Part shown: piece after piece, positions 42,025 to 56,764 of the stretch
Layout: each line of letters opens with the position of its first letter
Numbering within the stretch: position 1 is the first letter of the stretch
NCBI GenBank assembly: GCA_036504735.1
Contig: DASXUQ010000001.1
Coordinates: forward strand, 1-64,000
DNA from: a bacterium
Lineage (GTDB): Bacteria > Electryoneota > RPQS01
Length of the DNA stretch: 64,000 nucleotides
Direction: 5' to 3'
The notes under the pieces: model-generated
Database searches by the model: none
Told to the model about the DNA's origin: nothing
What the model saw: only the letters and a program-made list of their open reading frames with translations
Position numbers and translations under genes: made by a program

Positions 42025-42058
42025 AAATGGTTCGCCGAGAAAACAAGGCAATAGAAAG

Positions 42059-42430
42059 TTACATTGCCGCGGGCATGGCCTTCTTGGCGGCCTTCTTCGG
42101 GGCAGCCCTCTTCACGGTTGCCTTCTTCGGGGCGGCCTTCTTTGCCGTCGCCTTCTTCGGAGCGGCCTTCTTCGCGGTGGCCTTCTTCACGACCTTCTTC
42201 GCGACCTTCTTCGGGGCGGCCTTCTTCACGGTAGCCTTCTTCACGATCTTCTTGGCAACCTTCTTCGGGGCGGCCTTCTTCACGGTAGCCTTCTTCACGA
42301 TCTTCTTGGCGACCTTCTTCGGGGCAGCCTTCTTCACGGTAGCCTTCTTCACGGCCTTCTTCGGGGCGGCTTTCTTGGCAGTCGCCTTCTTCGGGGCGGC
42401 TTTCTTCACGGTTGCCTTTTTCGTAGGCAT
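42059..42430 (-). CDS. Lys/Ala-rich histone H1-like DNA-binding protein
   Basis: 123 residues from the ATG at 42430, with AAGGAG eight bases upstream; an in-frame ATG at 42454 is less likely. Almost the whole protein consists of KKATVKKAAPKK-type repeats (Lys, Ala, Pro, Thr, Val), like the C-terminal tail of histone H1 and bacterial Hc1/AlgP-type proteins. No folded domain. Expected to bind and compact DNA by charge. DNA shows a 57-base tandem repeat unit (KKAAPKKVAKKIVKKATV), so copy number may vary. Other reading frames across it are open because of the repeat and are not genes. Confidence 0.85.
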   Translation of the reverse strand: MPTKKATVKKAAPKKATAKKAAPKKAVKKATVKKAAPKKVAKKIVKKATVKKAAPKKVAKKIVKKATVKKAAPKKVAKKVVKKATAKKAAPKKATAKKAAPKKATVKRAAPKKAAKKAMPAAM

Positions 42431-42760
42431 AATCATTCTCCTTGAACTGAACATTGAGGGCAGGGACTCGTTCGGGAACGAACAGATGTTTCTGTTTGGC
42501 CGGGAACCACGCTCTACCCTCGCCTGCGCGGGTTCCCCTCTGGCCGTAATCGCCAGGTCCGTGCGGCGGACCGGGCGGTATTGCGGGCTGCATCACCCGA
42601 AGGCAACGCGGCCGACATCTCTATCATCAAGCCTTCGATGGAAGGCCGATACGATCGTTCTCGAACGTTGGCTCGCGCGTCGAACGCTGCGTGCCGTTTT
42701 CAGTTTAGCCTATAGAGCAAGTTTCGGGCCGAATACGGCGGAAGTGGCTCTATTGCGCTC
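42431..42760 (-). other. Hairpin-rich leader upstream of the histone-like gene
   Basis: About 330 noncoding bases. Several stems can be drawn: CGTTC/GAACG near 42469-42480, GGGAACC/GGTTCCC (42502-42537), GGTCCG/CGGACC (42557-42572), GCCTTC/GAAGGC (42631-42646) and CGTTC/GAACG near 42656-42667. It follows the terminator-like hairpin at 42761 and precedes the start codon at 42430, so it could be a structured 5' leader. No open frame is convincing. Confidence 0.45.
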
Positions 42761-42787
42761 AAAAAAGCACTCGGACTCTGCCGAGCG
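42761..42787 (-). terminator. Terminator-like hairpin with T6
   Basis: Read on the minus strand: CGCTCGG, six bases, CCGAGTG (7 bp with one G-T pair), then C and six T. It stands 330 bases before the histone-like start and about 380 bases after the promoter-like site at 43148-43176. Confidence 0.55.
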
Positions 42788-43141
42788 GATCGTGAATCGC
42801 ACCCGGCGATCCCTTGATCAGCGCCCATTTGGCGGTCTCAGGTGAGCATCTCGAGAGGCATGATCACGCCCCGGTCGGGCGAATCATGGTCGCGCGGCTC
42901 TTGCCACACGCCATCTCGACAGGCGTCGAATACGCGACGCTCACACCGGTTCTTCTGCCGCGAATCAGACACATCGTGTGTCCGTCATCGCGTGTCCATC
43001 ACCGCATCTCACTCTGAAAATTCTCTCTATGAGACAGCGCGTGTGCGCGCGCTGTTCCATGGGGTGAGTGCCGTCAAGGGACTCGCATCGCTCACAGAAC
43101 ATGTCCGCGCTTCATGCATCACACGCGTGCGGCGAACAAAC
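42761..43141 (-). ncRNA. Candidate noncoding RNA of about 380 nt
   Basis: A promoter-like pair (43148-43176) and an intrinsic-terminator-like hairpin (42761-42787) bracket this stretch on the same strand, and no reading frame inside is convincing. It contains further stems such as ACAGCGCG/CGCGCTGT (43033-43054) and GACACA/TGTGTC (42968-42982). I looked for the conserved sequences of tmRNA, RNase P RNA and SRP RNA and did not find them. Could instead be an attenuated leader of the histone-like gene or simply noncoding spacer. Confidence 0.35.
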
Positions 43142-50674: not shown

Positions 50675-50705
50675 CCGCAGCCGTTCGGCATCGTTCCTTC
50701 GAAAG

Positions 50706-50742
50706 CAGGGCGGGTTTTCACCCGCCCTGTTCTGTTTTTTTT
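50706..50742. terminator. Strong bidirectional terminator
   Basis: A perfect 9-bp stem (CAGGGCGGG with CCCGCCCTG) with a six-base loop, then TTCTGT and eight T. It serves the plus-strand lipoprotein gene; the minus-strand kinase gene ends at its edge (50741). Confidence 0.85.
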
Positions 50743-51685
50743 ATATCCCGCGCGATTCAGTATGGGTTCGCCCCCACTCCTGCAGGAACAGCAACCCGCC
50801 TTCCATCGGCCCACCCGAAGGCTCGGCAAAGACAAAGGGCAAATTGCGCAGCCGGATCTCCTCTTCCATCAGCGGCTGCAAGTGGTAGCGGTGCTCCCAC
50901 AGGCCGCCGATCACCACCAGCGGAACATTCTGCGCTTCAGGCAGCAGTGTCTCCTGCAACCGCCCCGCCAGAGAGACCAGTTCAATCGCCGCGCGATTCA
51001 TGATCTTAAAGGCTCCCAGGTCTTCCCGCACATAGCGGAACACCAGCGGGGCCAGTTTGGCCCAGCCTGACGGCCCCAGCCCTTCCTTATACACCTTGGT
51101 CAGAATCTGCGAGGCCAATTCGATTTCCAGAGCCTCCAGCACCGCCGCGTGCAACGGGCTGAGTTCGTCGCGCTCCCATTCGAGGAGGCAATGCCGCAGC
51201 GCTTCGCGTCCCAGCCATGCGCCGCTGCCCTCATCACCTAACAGCGGACCCCAGCCGCCCGCGCGGGTGAATTCGTGGCTGATGGGCGCACGGTAGAGGG
51301 CAATCGTTCCCGTGCCGGTAATCAGCAGAATGCCGTGCCGCCCGTCGGCAAACGCGCCGCGGTAGGCCAGTTCGGCATCCGTAATCACGCTCACCTCGCT
51401 GCCGGCAAACACCTGCGTGGCCGCGCCGAGGGCCGCATCGCGCTCCGGTTTGCGTCCCACTCCGGCCAATCCCAGCACCACCGAGACCGGCGCAGTCGTC
51501 CCCGGCAACCGCGACTTCAAATCGCGCAGCGCCGCCGCCACTCCCTCCGCTCCCACGGCTCCGAAACTGGTGGGTCCCACGTCCACGGTGACCACGTCCT
51601 CGGGCGCCGCCGAACCGTTCTCCGACCGTTTGATCAGCCATCCGCGTGTCTTCGTTCCTCCTCCATCCACAATCAGTACGGTCAT
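50741..51685 (-). CDS. BadF/BcrA-type ATPase, N-acetylglucosamine-kinase-like
   Basis: 314 residues, ASKHA fold. The phosphate-1 motif is VDGGGTKTRGWLI, GLAGVGR is the family loop, ITGTGTIALY and GGWGPLLGDEGSGAWLG are typical of BadF-type sugar kinases, and VVIGGLWEH is the adenosine motif. No iron-sulfur Cys cluster of the benzoyl-CoA reductase activators is present, so a sugar kinase such as GlcNAc kinase is favoured. Its ATG overlaps the stop of the last of four lipoprotein genes (ATGA), so it belongs to that operon. Confidence 0.85.
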   Translation of the reverse strand: MTVLIVDGGGTKTRGWLIKRSENGSAAPEDVVTVDVGPTSFGAVGAEGVAAALRDLKSRLPGTTAPVSVVLGLAGVGRKPERDAALGAATQVFAGSEVSVITDAELAYRGAFADGRHGILLITGTGTIALYRAPISHEFTRAGGWGPLLGDEGSGAWLGREALRHCLLEWERDELSPLHAAVLEALEIELASQILTKVYKEGLGPSGWAKLAPLVFRYVREDLGAFKIMNRAAIELVSLAGRLQETLLPEAQNVPLVVIGGLWEHRYHLQPLMEEEIRLRNLPFVFAEPSGGPMEGGLLFLQEWGRTHTESRGI

Positions 51686-52506
51686 TGACTCACTCCGTTT
51701 TCGATGATGGTTTGCGGCAGAAGATAGCCCAGGTCATGCAAGTCCTGCTGGGCATGGTTCAGCGCATTGTCTATCGTCACTCGCGCTCGTTGTTGGATGC
51801 CGCCCATGTATGCCGGATCCAGATCCAGGGACTGCGCCCACGGTGTAATCGCTTCGTCCAGTTGCGACGCCAGCAGCGTGGCGGTGCCCGGATTCACCTC
51901 CGGCAGATTTTCCAGCAACCGCCGCAGCACTACCGGCCAGAAGAGCAGGTTCCGTGCTCCCGAACGGTAATTCACCAGAGCCTGCTGTGCGCGGATTTCC
52001 GGCCCGCGGGGGATCAGCGTGTCCGGGCCGACCGGGGTCAACAACGGTTTCAGGTAATTGGCCGACTGCATCTGCGTATTCATGGCCGTGATCTGGTTGC
52101 TGATCTGCCGCGCAATCTCCGCAAACAGCAACTTGCCCGTGTCGCGCCACTCGCGATCCGGTTCGTGCTTCTTCTGCTGATAGACCGCCCCGCACACCAG
52201 CCCGGCCTGTACCAGAATATCCAGATCGTCCGCGTGGTTTTCCTCGTTGGGCCGCAGCCGCACCTCTTCTACAGAAGAGCGCGCAAACTCGTGCCACAGA
52301 TCCATGCGATTGGCGTTTTCATTCAAGAGCGACAGCGCCAGGGCGCGCGCGGAGTCCGCCTGCCCGGCCAGACGCAGGTCCCGGACCTCGTTGACGCGCT
52401 TCTCGCGGCCGCAACCGGCCACCAGAAGCAGGGCCAGAATCAGGATCATGCCCGCACCGATTGGCCGCGCGATGCGCGGCCCGGGTGTTCCGCTGAAGGG
52501 TGTCAC
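51682..52506 (-). CDS. Lipoprotein of a four-member paralog family (member 4)
   Basis: 274 residues from a GTG at 52506 three bases after the previous gene; an ATG at 52449 would also retain the signal. Lipobox LLLVAGC. It shares with its three neighbours the block VNEVRDLRLAGQADSARALA, MDLWHEFA and a short C-terminal block (DLHDLGYLLPQTIIEN). Most diverged of the four. Helical throughout and reminiscent of TPR proteins without a recognisable TPR consensus. Function unknown. Translationally coupled to the kinase gene downstream. Confidence 0.8.
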   Translation of the reverse strand: MTPFSGTPGPRIARPIGAGMILILALLLVAGCGREKRVNEVRDLRLAGQADSARALALSLLNENANRMDLWHEFARSSVEEVRLRPNEENHADDLDILVQAGLVCGAVYQQKKHEPDREWRDTGKLLFAEIARQISNQITAMNTQMQSANYLKPLLTPVGPDTLIPRGPEIRAQQALVNYRSGARNLLFWPVVLRRLLENLPEVNPGTATLLASQLDEAITPWAQSLDLDPAYMGGIQQRARVTIDNALNHAQQDLHDLGYLLPQTIIENGVSQ

Positions 52507-52509
52507 GGT

Positions 52510-53274
52510 TTACTCGAGTATGGTGTTGCCAAGGATCGTTTCCGCCTGAAAATAGCCGAGGTCATCGAGGTCCTGCACCGCCGCGGCAATCTGCTTGCTC
52601 GTCGCGGCGCTCGCCCGGTCGCGCTGCGCCTGCACCTGGCTCATCGTGATATTCGAATTAATGCCCATCTGGCTGACGCGCGCGTCATACTCCTGGGCGT
52701 TCTTCGAAAAGTCTATCGAAACCACCGGGCCGAGCTGCTGGGCAAAGACCATCAGCGGCACGGTGTTCTTCACCACCCACTGCATCCCGTCGGTATCCAC
52801 AAAGCGTTCCGGGTCGATATCAGAATGTCCCAGCCGTTCGAGCGTCACCTTCCCCCGCGCCGTTGAGATCGACACTCCACCGAGGCCTGTCGTCGCCAGT
52901 TCCATCGCCCGCAACACCGTCTGTGATGCCACCGCGAGCCACGGCTCGTCGAGCTTCCCCTTGTTGTGCTCGCTCATGGCGGCGCAGATCAGCGCCGCCT
53001 CCACGGCATAGCGGTAGGGCTCGTTCTCCGGAGGCACCGCGCGCTCCCGCGCCAGCACGATATCCGTCGCGGCCAGTTCCCGCCAAAGCCGCAGGTTTTT
53101 CGGTTCCTTTTGCAGTTCCGCTATGGCCATCTCCCGTGCGGCGTCGGCCTTGCGCTCCAGCCGCAACGCCGCGACCTCCTTGGCCACGCGGTTGGTCGAA
53201 CAACCGTTCAGCGCCAGACTGCCCATCAGCAGCAGCGCGATACAAACATGCGCGAAAACACGGATCATTTTCAT
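52510..53274 (-). CDS. Lipoprotein of a four-member paralog family (member 3)
   Basis: 254 residues from the ATG at 53274 (GGGAGAA upstream). Lipobox LALNGC. Shared blocks: VAALRLERKADAAREMAIAE, LRLWRELAATDIVLAR, YAVEAALICAAMSEHNKGKL and the ending DLDDLGYFQAETILGN. The middle section is unique to this member. Predicted outer-membrane- or inner-membrane-anchored, facing the periplasm. Function unknown. Confidence 0.82.
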   Translation of the reverse strand: MKMIRVFAHVCIALLLMGSLALNGCSTNRVAKEVAALRLERKADAAREMAIAELQKEPKNLRLWRELAATDIVLARERAVPPENEPYRYAVEAALICAAMSEHNKGKLDEPWLAVASQTVLRAMELATTGLGGVSISTARGKVTLERLGHSDIDPERFVDTDGMQWVVKNTVPLMVFAQQLGPVVSIDFSKNAQEYDARVSQMGINSNITMSQVQAQRDRASAATSKQIAAAVQDLDDLGYFQAETILGNTILE

Positions 53275-53307
53275 CGAGGTTCTCCCCGGCAATGCCGTAG
53301 TAGGTGA

Positions 53308-54120
53308 CTATTCCGCGAGCCGGTTGCTCAGAAGGGTGCGCGCATCAAAATGGTGGTGCTCGGCCAGATCATTCCGCGCCGCGTCAAAGGCAACGGCGGC
53401 GGCCTTTCGCCCCTTGTCCCGTTGCAAATCCACAAAGGCCGCACTCAGATTGGAATGGGAGGCCGCCCACAGCAGCTTCTGCTCTATTTGATTCAGATTC
53501 ACCGCCGCCACTTTCGGATTGTCGCAGGGCAGATGCCGGAAAAGTTCCATCAGCATCGCGGTCTGTTGAATGATCTCTCCCGCCGTCTCCGGATCCACAT
53601 AGGTCTCGAACACATCCGGATTCGATCCCTGTGGCCTCACGGTCAGCGGCTGATCGTCCGGATCCTCGAGATCCCGCGGCAGATAGCCCGGCGGATCATA
53701 CGGCACTCTGCCGAAGTTGTCAATCGGCAGACGGCTCACCAGATGGTTTGCCCAGTTGCTTGTCTCCGCTGCGCTGCTGACGCCCGCTCCGTTCCACTCG
53801 CGGTCTAAAAGACCTTTCTTGTACTCGTTATACGCACCGCAAATCAGCGCGGCTTCAACCAGATAGGGCAGTGGATCTTCCTGCGCCTCCACAGCCGAGG
53901 CGGCCCGTCGGCCCAGTTGGACATCCGTGATCGCCAACTCGCGCCAGACATCCATCTGTTTGGAATTCTCCTTCAGCTCATCGATGGCCCGGTCTCTTGC
54001 CATACTGACGCTGCCCGACATGCGCATCTGCGCAATATCCTCAGCCGTCCGGTCCAGCTTACAGCCGGCGATCAAAGCCGGCAGAACCATCAGCAGCAAC
54101 GCGCCATGTCTAAGACTCAT
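53308..54120 (-). CDS. Lipoprotein of a four-member paralog family (member 2)
   Basis: 270 residues. Lipobox LIAGC within the first 20 residues. Shared blocks: IAQMRMSGSVSMARDRAIDE, MDVWRELAITDVQLGR, LVEAALICGAYNEYKKGLL and ending DLAEHHHFDARTLLSNRLAE. A proline/aspartate-rich insertion (about 130-165) is peculiar to this copy. Function unknown; 33 bases separate it from the next gene. Confidence 0.82.
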   Translation of the reverse strand: MSLRHGALLLMVLPALIAGCKLDRTAEDIAQMRMSGSVSMARDRAIDELKENSKQMDVWRELAITDVQLGRRAASAVEAQEDPLPYLVEAALICGAYNEYKKGLLDREWNGAGVSSAAETSNWANHLVSRLPIDNFGRVPYDPPGYLPRDLEDPDDQPLTVRPQGSNPDVFETYVDPETAGEIIQQTAMLMELFRHLPCDNPKVAAVNLNQIEQKLLWAASHSNLSAAFVDLQRDKGRKAAAVAFDAARNDLAEHHHFDARTLLSNRLAE

Positions 54121-54157
54121 ATCATGACTCCCCGTACATCATAGCGCTCGGACACAG

Positions 54158-55084
54158 TTACTCCAAAAGTGAAAGCTTTGAAACAGTCTCGGGCTCAAAA
54201 TGGCCCTTTGTATCGAGATCCTTCTGAGCGGCCATCAGTGCGGCAACCACCGCCGTTCTTGCGGCGGCCCGGTGGTTCATTACAAATCCCGTCGTCAGGT
54301 TCGAATGCTCCGTCGCCGCCGCCAGCTTTTCGGTCATCTTCTTTACCGCTCGGGAGACTCGCATCGGATCGTCGGTGGGGAGCCGCTCTAAGAGCGTTAT
54401 CAGCACGCCGAGGTTGTGAATATCCACCCCCGCAGCGGTTGAATCGAAGTAAGTCGCCGGAATCTCTTTGCCTTCCAGTTCCCAGCGGCGCTTGTACGTC
54501 TCGATTTGCTCGGACGTCGCGTCCGGAAGGTGTACATCGAGGACCCGGCCATCATTCTCGTACCGCACCTGCCGTCGGGGCCGCACTCCCCATTCCTCTT
54601 CGCGCAGCATTTCCGGAGTCGGTCCCGATCCACGCGGCGGCCCCAGCAATCCCGCATCCACGGGACGGTCGCTGGGTTTCCGTTCGAAACGGCCGGCAAG
54701 CTGATCGGCCTGCCTGGTGATTTCCTCTGCTACGGACCGGCCAATCCAACTCCAGTCAAAATCCAGTCTGTCTTTCCGGTGGTCATACATCGCGGCGCAC
54801 AGCAGCGCGGCTTCGGTCAGATTCGCCAGAGGATCTTCCTCCGTCACCTCTGCGTTCTGCTGGGCCAGTTCCAGTTGGGTCGCTGCCAATTCACGCCACA
54901 CCGCCATCCGCTCCGGCCTCTGCTGCAACGCGTCAACCGCCTTCTGTTTGGCCGCGACCACCTGGCCGTCTTTGCGCAGCGACGCGATTTTGCGTGGCGT
55001 GCGGTCCAGAACTTCCAGCGCATCGCAACCGGCCAGCAGCAGGGAGACGCCGATCAATGCGCTGAAACCCCATCTGAGGGTCAT
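54158..55084 (-). CDS. Lipoprotein of a four-member paralog family (member 1)
   Basis: 308 residues, the first and longest of the set. Lipobox LLLAGC. Shared blocks: IASLRKDGQVVAAKQKAVDA, MAVWRELAATQLELAQ, LTEAALLCAAMYDHRKDRLD and ending DLDTKGHFEPETVSKLSLLE. A longer central part includes basic and acidic segments not seen in the others. A terminator-like hairpin lies upstream at 55164, so transcription probably starts between 55085 and 55160. Function unknown. Confidence 0.82.
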   Translation of the reverse strand: MTLRWGFSALIGVSLLLAGCDALEVLDRTPRKIASLRKDGQVVAAKQKAVDALQQRPERMAVWRELAATQLELAQQNAEVTEEDPLANLTEAALLCAAMYDHRKDRLDFDWSWIGRSVAEEITRQADQLAGRFERKPSDRPVDAGLLGPPRGSGPTPEMLREEEWGVRPRRQVRYENDGRVLDVHLPDATSEQIETYKRRWELEGKEIPATYFDSTAAGVDIHNLGVLITLLERLPTDDPMRVSRAVKKMTEKLAAATEHSNLTTGFVMNHRAAARTAVVAALMAAQKDLDTKGHFEPETVSKLSLLE

Positions 55085-55163
55085 GCGCTCGACCTCCGGT
55101 GAATTGAGACGGTTCCGATCTATCCGATCTAAATGTCACGATTTTTCGTGAATTCTGCAAGTG

Positions 55164-55193
55164 AAAAGACCGGCCCTAAGACCGGTCTTTTTC
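55164..55193 (-). terminator. Rho-independent terminator
   Basis: A perfect 10-bp stem (AAAAGACCGG with CCGGTCTTTT), 24 bases past the stop of the GyrI-like gene; A and T runs on both sides allow either direction. Confidence 0.75.
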
Positions 55194-55216: not shown

Positions 55217-55864
55217 CTATCGGCCAGAACCGGGAGGATCATTGCCGTCCGCGTGGGGCTGGGCCATTCGCCGTACGGGCCAGCGGATTTCCGCCACATC
55301 ATCACTCGGCACCGGTTTGGCGCGCGTACCGTTCACATAGACTTCCATAAAGGGTCCCGCCGGAGCATAGCCCCGGGAGAAGATCCACTTTCCTAAAGAA
55401 TCGCGTAGCGCGGCACGGTCATCCAGAGATCCTTGATGCCGCACCACCGCCGAGGTTGTGGCAGGCAGCCGCTCAATGGTGACCAGGTTTTTGCCTCCGG
55501 CGTTTTCCGCCACCGGATAGCCGATCTTACACGTCATGTTCTGCGGCGGCGTGGTTTGCGGGTCTTCATTGAACACCACAAAGCTCGGGCCGGCGGGGCG
55601 GCCTCCCTCTTTCATCCAGCGCGCCAGCTTCTCATATCCATTGGTCAACATTATCTCTACGGCTTGCCTCACACCGCTTGCGCCAGCCGCCCAGCCATGT
55701 TTCGGAACATAATCCGCCGCCCTTACGGTGACGGTCGCCGCCGTCAAAGGCGGCACCGCGCGGATCACCATTTCGCCGATGCTGCTGGGTCTAACCTGCT
55801 CTTCGGCCTGAGCCACTCCCATAAACAACAAGATAACCACCGAAACCATCCACCACCACTTCAT
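55217..55864 (-). CDS. Exported GyrI-like effector-binding-domain protein
   Basis: 215 residues from the ATG at 55864 (GGAG upstream; an in-frame start at 55903 would precede the signal peptide). Signal peptide MKWWWMVSVVILLFMGVAQA, then a single domain with AVEIMLTNGYEKLARWM, PAGPSFVVFNED, CKIGYPVAENAGG and FMEVYVNGTR, the layout of GyrI-like/AraC effector-binding domains, which normally sit in the cytoplasm. Paralogous to the next gene. A ligand-binding role in the periplasm is inferred. Confidence 0.75.
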   Translation of the reverse strand: MKWWWMVSVVILLFMGVAQAEEQVRPSSIGEMVIRAVPPLTAATVTVRAADYVPKHGWAAGASGVRQAVEIMLTNGYEKLARWMKEGGRPAGPSFVVFNEDPQTTPPQNMTCKIGYPVAENAGGKNLVTIERLPATTSAVVRHQGSLDDRAALRDSLGKWIFSRGYAPAGPFMEVYVNGTRAKPVPSDDVAEIRWPVRRMAQPHADGNDPPGSGR

Positions 55865-55915
55865 GCACCACTCCGGTTTGAATAAATAGACACCTCTATT
55901 CAACGCAATAAAGGC

Positions 55916-55975: not shown

Positions 55976-56764
55976 TTACTTGTTGCCGCCTGTAGCCTTA
56001 GGAGCCTCAGCCGCCTTGGGGGCCGCTGCTGCTTTCGGAGTTTCGGGAGTCTTGGGTGCCTCTGCGGCCTTGGGAGCGTCCGGAGCCATCGGCGCTTCGC
56101 CGACCTTCGTCTTGTCGCTCTTCGGCGCGGGTGCGTCCGCCTTCGTTACCGGGAAGCGAACCTCGGTCAAATACTCTTCCGGCTTCACCTTGTCGTGCTC
56201 GCTCTTCAGATAGATTTCCATCGGAGGACCGGCAAACTGGTAGCCGTGCTCGGGAATCCACTTCATCAGCGCGCCGTACACATCCATGCTGCCCTCATAC
56301 GGACCGGCAAACTGCACCACAGCCGCCTGCATTTCCGGAAACTCTTCGAGCTTCACGGCATCGGTAACCTTAGCATCCTTCGTTGTGGGGAAGCCAACTT
56401 TGCAGGTCAGATCCTTGGCAGCAACCTTCGTCGGATCTTCGAAATAGATTCCGAAGCTGGGGCCGGTGGGCTTGCCGCCTGCCGCCATCCATGCACCGAG
56501 CTTGCCGTAAGCATCCGGCATCATCACCTTCCATGCCTGCTCCGCACCTTCCATACCGGTCTTGTAGCCGTCCTTCGGAGCATGATCCGTCGCCTTTTCC
56601 ATCACGGTCACTGCTGTCATCGCGGGAATGGTCTTCACACTGATCTCGCCAACCATAGCCGTCTTCGCCTTCGGTGCCGCGGGCATCGCCTTCTTCTCGC
56701 CCGTCTGTGCCAACACCATTGCCGCCGACAGCAGCAACACAACCCCTACCAGTAACCGTCGCAT
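55976..56764 (-). CDS. Exported GyrI-like protein with Ala/Pro/Lys tail
   Basis: 262 residues. Signal peptide MRRLLVGVVLLLSAAMVLAQ; GyrI-like domain about 36-210 (MPDAYGKLGAWMAAGGKPTG, SFGIYFEDP, CKVGFPTTKDA, FPEMQAAVVQFAGPYEG, PPMEIYL); then some 45 residues of KAAEAPKTPETPK-type low complexity, similar to the tail of the exported carbonic anhydrase at 10408. SD AGGAGAAA is visible nine bases upstream. Function unknown; probably periplasmic ligand binding. Confidence 0.77.
   Translation of the reverse strand: MRRLLVGVVLLLSAAMVLAQTGEKKAMPAAPKAKTAMVGEISVKTIPAMTAVTVMEKATDHAPKDGYKTGMEGAEQAWKVMMPDAYGKLGAWMAAGGKPTGPSFGIYFEDPTKVAAKDLTCKVGFPTTKDAKVTDAVKLEEFPEMQAAVVQFAGPYEGSMDVYGALMKWIPEHGYQFAGPPMEIYLKSEHDKVKPEEYLTEVRFPVTKADAPAPKSDKTKVGEAPMAPDAPKAAEAPKTPETPKAAAAPKAAEAPKATGGNK

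Follow-up and report, generated by a model that had tools for sequence, protein, structure and literature searches.

Five consecutive genes occupy the minus strand from position 55084 down to 50741 of the window, by which we mean the whole stretch of 64,000 nucleotides that was analysed. The first four encode lipoproteins, here called LP1 to LP4, and the fifth a BadF-type kinase. A reading made earlier from the sequence alone had described the locus as one operon of four strongly diverged paralogous lipoproteins and such a kinase, and in this it was accurate to the base: gaps of 37, 33 and 3 bases separate successive lipoprotein genes, and LP4 and the kinase gene share a 4-base ATGA overlap. 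The features are listed below.

54158..55084, minus strand: LP1, a 308-aa lipoprotein with lipobox LAGC-D, a TPR-like N-terminal hairpin and a helical C-terminus (both predicted)
53308..54120, minus strand: LP2, a 270-aa paralogous lipoprotein with lipobox IAGC-K
52510..53274, minus strand: LP3, a 254-aa paralogous lipoprotein with lipobox LNGC-S
51682..52506, minus strand: LP4, a 274-aa lipoprotein with lipobox VAGC-G and a GTG start, overlapping the kinase gene by 4 bases
50741..51685, minus strand: BadF/BcrAD-type (NAGK/MurK-like) sugar kinase, 314 aa (PF01869, E 3.8e-13)
about 55161..55192, minus strand: hairpin 5′ of LP1 (-22.8 kcal/mol, z -5.1), probable terminator of the preceding gene
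50704..50731, no strand assigned: hairpin between the kinase gene and a convergent FN3 lipoprotein gene (z -6.0), likely a bidirectional terminator

Since stable hairpins lie just 5′ of LP1 and just 3′ of the kinase gene, we infer that LP1–LP4 and the kinase gene are likely to form one transcription unit, its start probably falling after the hairpin at about 55161..55192. Two further features of the window are recorded here in their own right. Exported GyrI-like proteins (PF06445) are encoded by a tandem pair at 55217-55903 and 55976-56764, where relatives have a single copy, and at 42027-42845 there is a long Ala/Phe-rich open reading frame on the plus strand (AAFFAVAFFGAAFF...) that is probably the antisense strand of a histone-like tail rich in Lys and Ala.

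The lipoprotein family and its distribution

By inspection, all four lipoproteins begin with a type II signal peptide ending in a lipobox, and their paralogy is supported by pairwise Smith-Waterman alignment of the mature proteins, with scores 20–48 s.d. above those of shuffled sequences. The blocks said to be shared among them are unequal, in that the EAALxC block has ~47% pairwise identity and the closing DLDxxGxF block, which is only moderately conserved, ~32%. Duplication introduced by assembly was excluded as the source of the four copies, the proteins being only 27-38% identical to LP1, and searches of the genome found none beyond the four. As the sequence-only reading had supposed, known families supply no name: neither Pfam nor NCBIfam gave a match above chance (those to LptM, LacI and Anticodon_3 were at chance level and were rejected), and a literature search found no description of the family.

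The question of whether the shared blocks are simply ordinary TPRs, which would have counted against the sequence-only reading, receives a divided answer. The first blocks (LRxxGxxxxAxxxAxxxL…WRELA) are of TPR type: an alignment of 59 columns joins them to TPR lipoproteins from within the phylum (hhalign E 8.9e-7, 91%, against E 0.47 for a kinase control), and the aligned stretch in those proteins is TPR_14 or TPR_19 in Pfam. TPR_14 itself is weakly matched by two of ten family members, with a best E of 0.0049 that is below the cut-off; above cut-off, the curated TPR models detect no unit anywhere in the family, LP1–LP4 included. A profile search of the PDB with the family returned consensus TPR as its only match, in register, at E 0.39. 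The remainder of the protein does not look like ordinary TPR. The AlphaFold2 model of LP4 is all-helical (pLDDT 87, pTM 0.79) and that of LP1 mostly helical with a low-confidence middle (about residues 137-189), and Foldseek returned no match at E<=0.001 for either protein against the PDB or for LP4 against BFVD; its top lists are rich in TPR proteins, though these matches are weak (best E 0.09-0.42), and no known fold corresponds to the C-terminal two thirds. By alignment and model, the lipoproteins are each a TPR-type hairpin at the N-terminus followed by a predicted helical body of no recognised fold.

A survey of 386 genomes, including 11 from the window's own family, placed the full-length lipoprotein in that family only, where this genome has four copies and six of the ten relatives have exactly one each. 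Weak matches in three other genomes (G017, G018 and G031) were set aside as TPR lipoproteins that align only over the first ~60 residues. Nowhere in the 386 genomes was a lipoprotein of the family found away from the kinase: in all seven genomes that bear one it lies directly upstream of the kinase gene, in five of them with the 4-base overlap, so that the proposed linkage extends, by profile search, to six genomes besides this one. The orthologous lipoproteins of the relatives share only about 20-43% identity with LP4; most of the single copies have LP4 as their closest BLAST match, the exception being the divergent copy in G004. As LP1–3 form a clade of their own (support 97/95) that is found in this genome only, and given the closeness of most single copies to LP4, sequence comparison identifies LP4 as the conserved member, orthologous to the relatives' single copy, and LP1–3 as a lineage-specific expansion seen in this genome only. 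On these searches the lipoproteins are a new and unnamed family, restricted to one family of uncultured bacteria and fairly ordinary in kind.

The wider neighbourhood is also kept across the family and comprises Pol I, DUF3467, the FN3 lipoprotein, the kinase, the GyrI-like protein and MutY. This same gene order, kinase included but lipoprotein absent, is found in two genomes of genus g8, and the kinase also occurs without the lipoprotein in sister family f2 and in the remainder of the phylum; because the kinase is so often found alone, even at the same locus, lipoprotein and kinase are not an obligate unit and the kinase does not need the lipoprotein. A contig scan with the four-copy lipoprotein alignment found nothing, and one with the kinase found four named relatives and three distant kinases; the relatives are labelled in public records as candidate division KSB1, as Calditrichaeota or as unclassified MAGs. 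In the phylum's other families, BadF-type kinases often have as neighbour a protein of ~500 aa (L076-L088); both that were tested carry GT2 (PF00535) as their C-terminal domain and have an N-terminal half without assignment.

The kinase and its likely role in amino-sugar recycling

The kinase passes the gathering score of PF01869, the BadF/BcrAD ATPase family, with 50 bits against 31.5. Its best solved relative is the MurNAc/GlcNAc kinase MurK of C. acetobutylicum (8zo3, profile E 1.9e-38), followed by the hexokinase 2e2n and GlcNAc kinases, which agrees with the earlier proposal of a cytoplasmic amino-sugar kinase in the operon. It has a DGGGT phosphate loop, a catalytic T102-D103 pair, GGWG and GDEGSG, and is closest to characterised amino-sugar kinases with DxGxT, catalytic Asp, GTG and GDEGS motifs. 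At 76 bits against a cut-off of 370, it is not the NagK_SO3507 equivalog.

As to substrate, a report on the MurK of T. forsythia explains its acceptance of MurNAc by a lactyl site lined with small residues and by a Thr before the catalytic Asp (PMC10465942). The kinase has Gly-Gly-Trp at the lactyl position, with no bulky Glu/His, and a Thr directly before the catalytic Asp. The same Gly-Gly-Trp and Thr are found in human NAGK, which is reported to phosphorylate muramyl peptides (PMC9477735). C. acetobutylicum MurK, however, has Asn rather than Thr at that position, and for this reason the sequence of the kinase does not separate GlcNAc from MurNAc.

Genome content speaks to the pathway. MurQ is over cut-off in 11 of 11 genomes of the window's family; in this genome it lies far from the operon, on contig 9, with no linkage to the kinase, and it is missing from some kinase-bearing genomes elsewhere (f4 and several of f5). 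AnmK is present in all nine genomes of family f3 and in none of the 30 other genomes of the phylum, and thus is absent from the window's family, whereas the BadF-type kinase is found in one of the nine and in 27 of the 30. The pattern is near-complementary (Fisher p 2e-5), although the counts follow clades and are not independent, and because it follows one clade it possibly reflects a single evolutionary event, so that the p value overstates the case. It suggests non-orthologous replacement of AnmK by a BadF/MurK-type kinase in peptidoglycan recycling. With MurQ present, AnmK absent and the kinase MurK-like, glycan recycling holds up as its likely pathway, and most likely it is a cytoplasmic MurNAc (or MurNAc/GlcNAc) kinase that would feed MurQ. 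What counts against a simple recycling reading is the fate of GlcNAc-6-P, since a test of four family genomes (G000, G001, G007 and G009), all with MurQ, gave no match to NagA (TIGR00221). Were the replacement real, the phylum may have exchanged the kinase that supplies MurQ, with AnmK serving one family and a BadF/MurK-type enzyme most of the others.

Two observations concern the surroundings of these genes. In one relative (G003) the kinase gene is followed by that of an oligopeptide:H+ symporter of the POT family, which overlaps the kinase stop codon (L019:1726-3075) and would fit salvage of wall fragments. On contig 9 of this genome (G000), 3′ of MurQ (L092:6427-9103), there is a UG36-type reverse transcriptase (PADLOC RT_UG36, E 2e-137) and, ahead of it, a protein weakly matching part of RT_UG35; together they are a candidate anti-phage system.

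What the lipoproteins may do, and how the operon compares with known systems

The explanation that we tentatively favour, with somewhat less than even confidence, is that the operon co-expresses a cytoplasmic MurNAc/GlcNAc kinase feeding MurQ with TPR-like envelope lipoproteins acting in murein turnover or uptake. The kinase would phosphorylate the 6 position of MurNAc, and perhaps of GlcNAc, recovered from cell-wall material, and the resulting MurNAc-6-P would be handed to the MurQ encoded elsewhere in the genome. The same operon would supply LP4 and, in this lineage only, the three extra paralogues. These would be membrane-anchored, all-helical periplasmic proteins whose TPR-type surfaces probably contact other proteins; most likely they would serve the envelope as docking sites or scaffolds in murein turnover and in sugar and peptide uptake, a role conjectured from linkage alone. 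A stronger version, in which TPR-derived lipoproteins of one bacterial family are tied both physically and functionally to a MurNAc kinase and, as an envelope component, belong to a route of peptidoglycan salvage where AnmK has been replaced by a BadF-type kinase, and four specialised copies serve one lineage, strikes us as unlikely.

Nearly as good as the favoured explanation, and a real possibility, is that the lipoprotein is a bystander: an envelope protein with no tie to the kinase, its gene having been inserted, or simply kept, between those of the GyrI-like protein and the kinase, with the adjacency due to conserved synteny and shared expression and LP1-3 to ordinary tandem duplication. 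Conservation of the whole neighbourhood from Pol I to MutY would be expected on such a model, as would the g8 genomes that keep the order without it; the restriction of the lipoprotein to this locus and the tandem duplication of the neighbouring GyrI-like gene can be read the same way. Harder to accommodate are the 4-base overlap, kept in five of seven genomes even as the lipoproteins drifted to about 20-43% identity with LP4, and the constancy with which the lipoprotein accompanies the kinase.

We consider it improbable that the lipoproteins are TatT-like (the TRAP T-component) or other transporter adaptors, docking with a permease or binding protein that handles amino sugars or muropeptides, with the four paralogues serving different ligands. 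The TAtT family is weakly matched (PF16811, E 4.5e-5, below cut-off) by a TPR lipoprotein whose first block is related, and the POT permease of G003 would suit the idea, but none of the family's own lipoproteins matches TAtT, no gene for a TRAP or binding protein was recognised beside the operon, and no TPR or TatT structure was matched significantly by Foldseek. Least probable of all is an obligate hetero-oligomeric periplasmic machine, which four adjacent, probably co-transcribed and diverged paralogues of matching plan might suggest, for the single copy in six relatives and the confinement of LP1-3, as a separate clade, to one genome mean that the ancestral state was not an assembly of four subunits; a conserved multi-subunit assembly of the kind suggested by the sequence-only reading is not supported.

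Should the lipoproteins act in murein turnover, as on the favoured explanation, they would add to cell-wall recycling an envelope component not seen before; in any case, the operon defines an unnamed lipoprotein family in a phylum about which little is known, and the family has a conserved genetic partner open to assay. That partner has in common with the MurK/NAGK kinases (PF01869; 8zo3, 1zc6, 2ch6) its family, phosphate loop and GGWG/GDEGSG motifs, the lack of a bulky Glu/His at the lactyl position and a MurQ in the genome, but is distant in sequence from MurK (phmmer E 6.9e-21 to 8zo3). As in AnmK-MurQ recycling, MurQ is present and requires a 6-kinase to supply it; unlike that system, AnmK is absent and a BadF-type kinase, not linked to MurQ, stands in its place. 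The idea of a periplasmic TPR-like lipoprotein is common to TatT, to which LP1 and LP4 show neither a sequence nor a fold match; no TRAP genes were seen next to the operon. Closest in kind to the lipoproteins are the bacterial TPR lipoproteins (TPR_14/TPR_19), including those of the same phylum, which likewise have a lipobox, a corresponding first hairpin and an all-helical make-up; unlike them, LP1–LP4 stay below Pfam cut-offs, without a run of consecutive detectable TPRs, and their C-terminal two thirds are predicted to be long helices without a PDB match.
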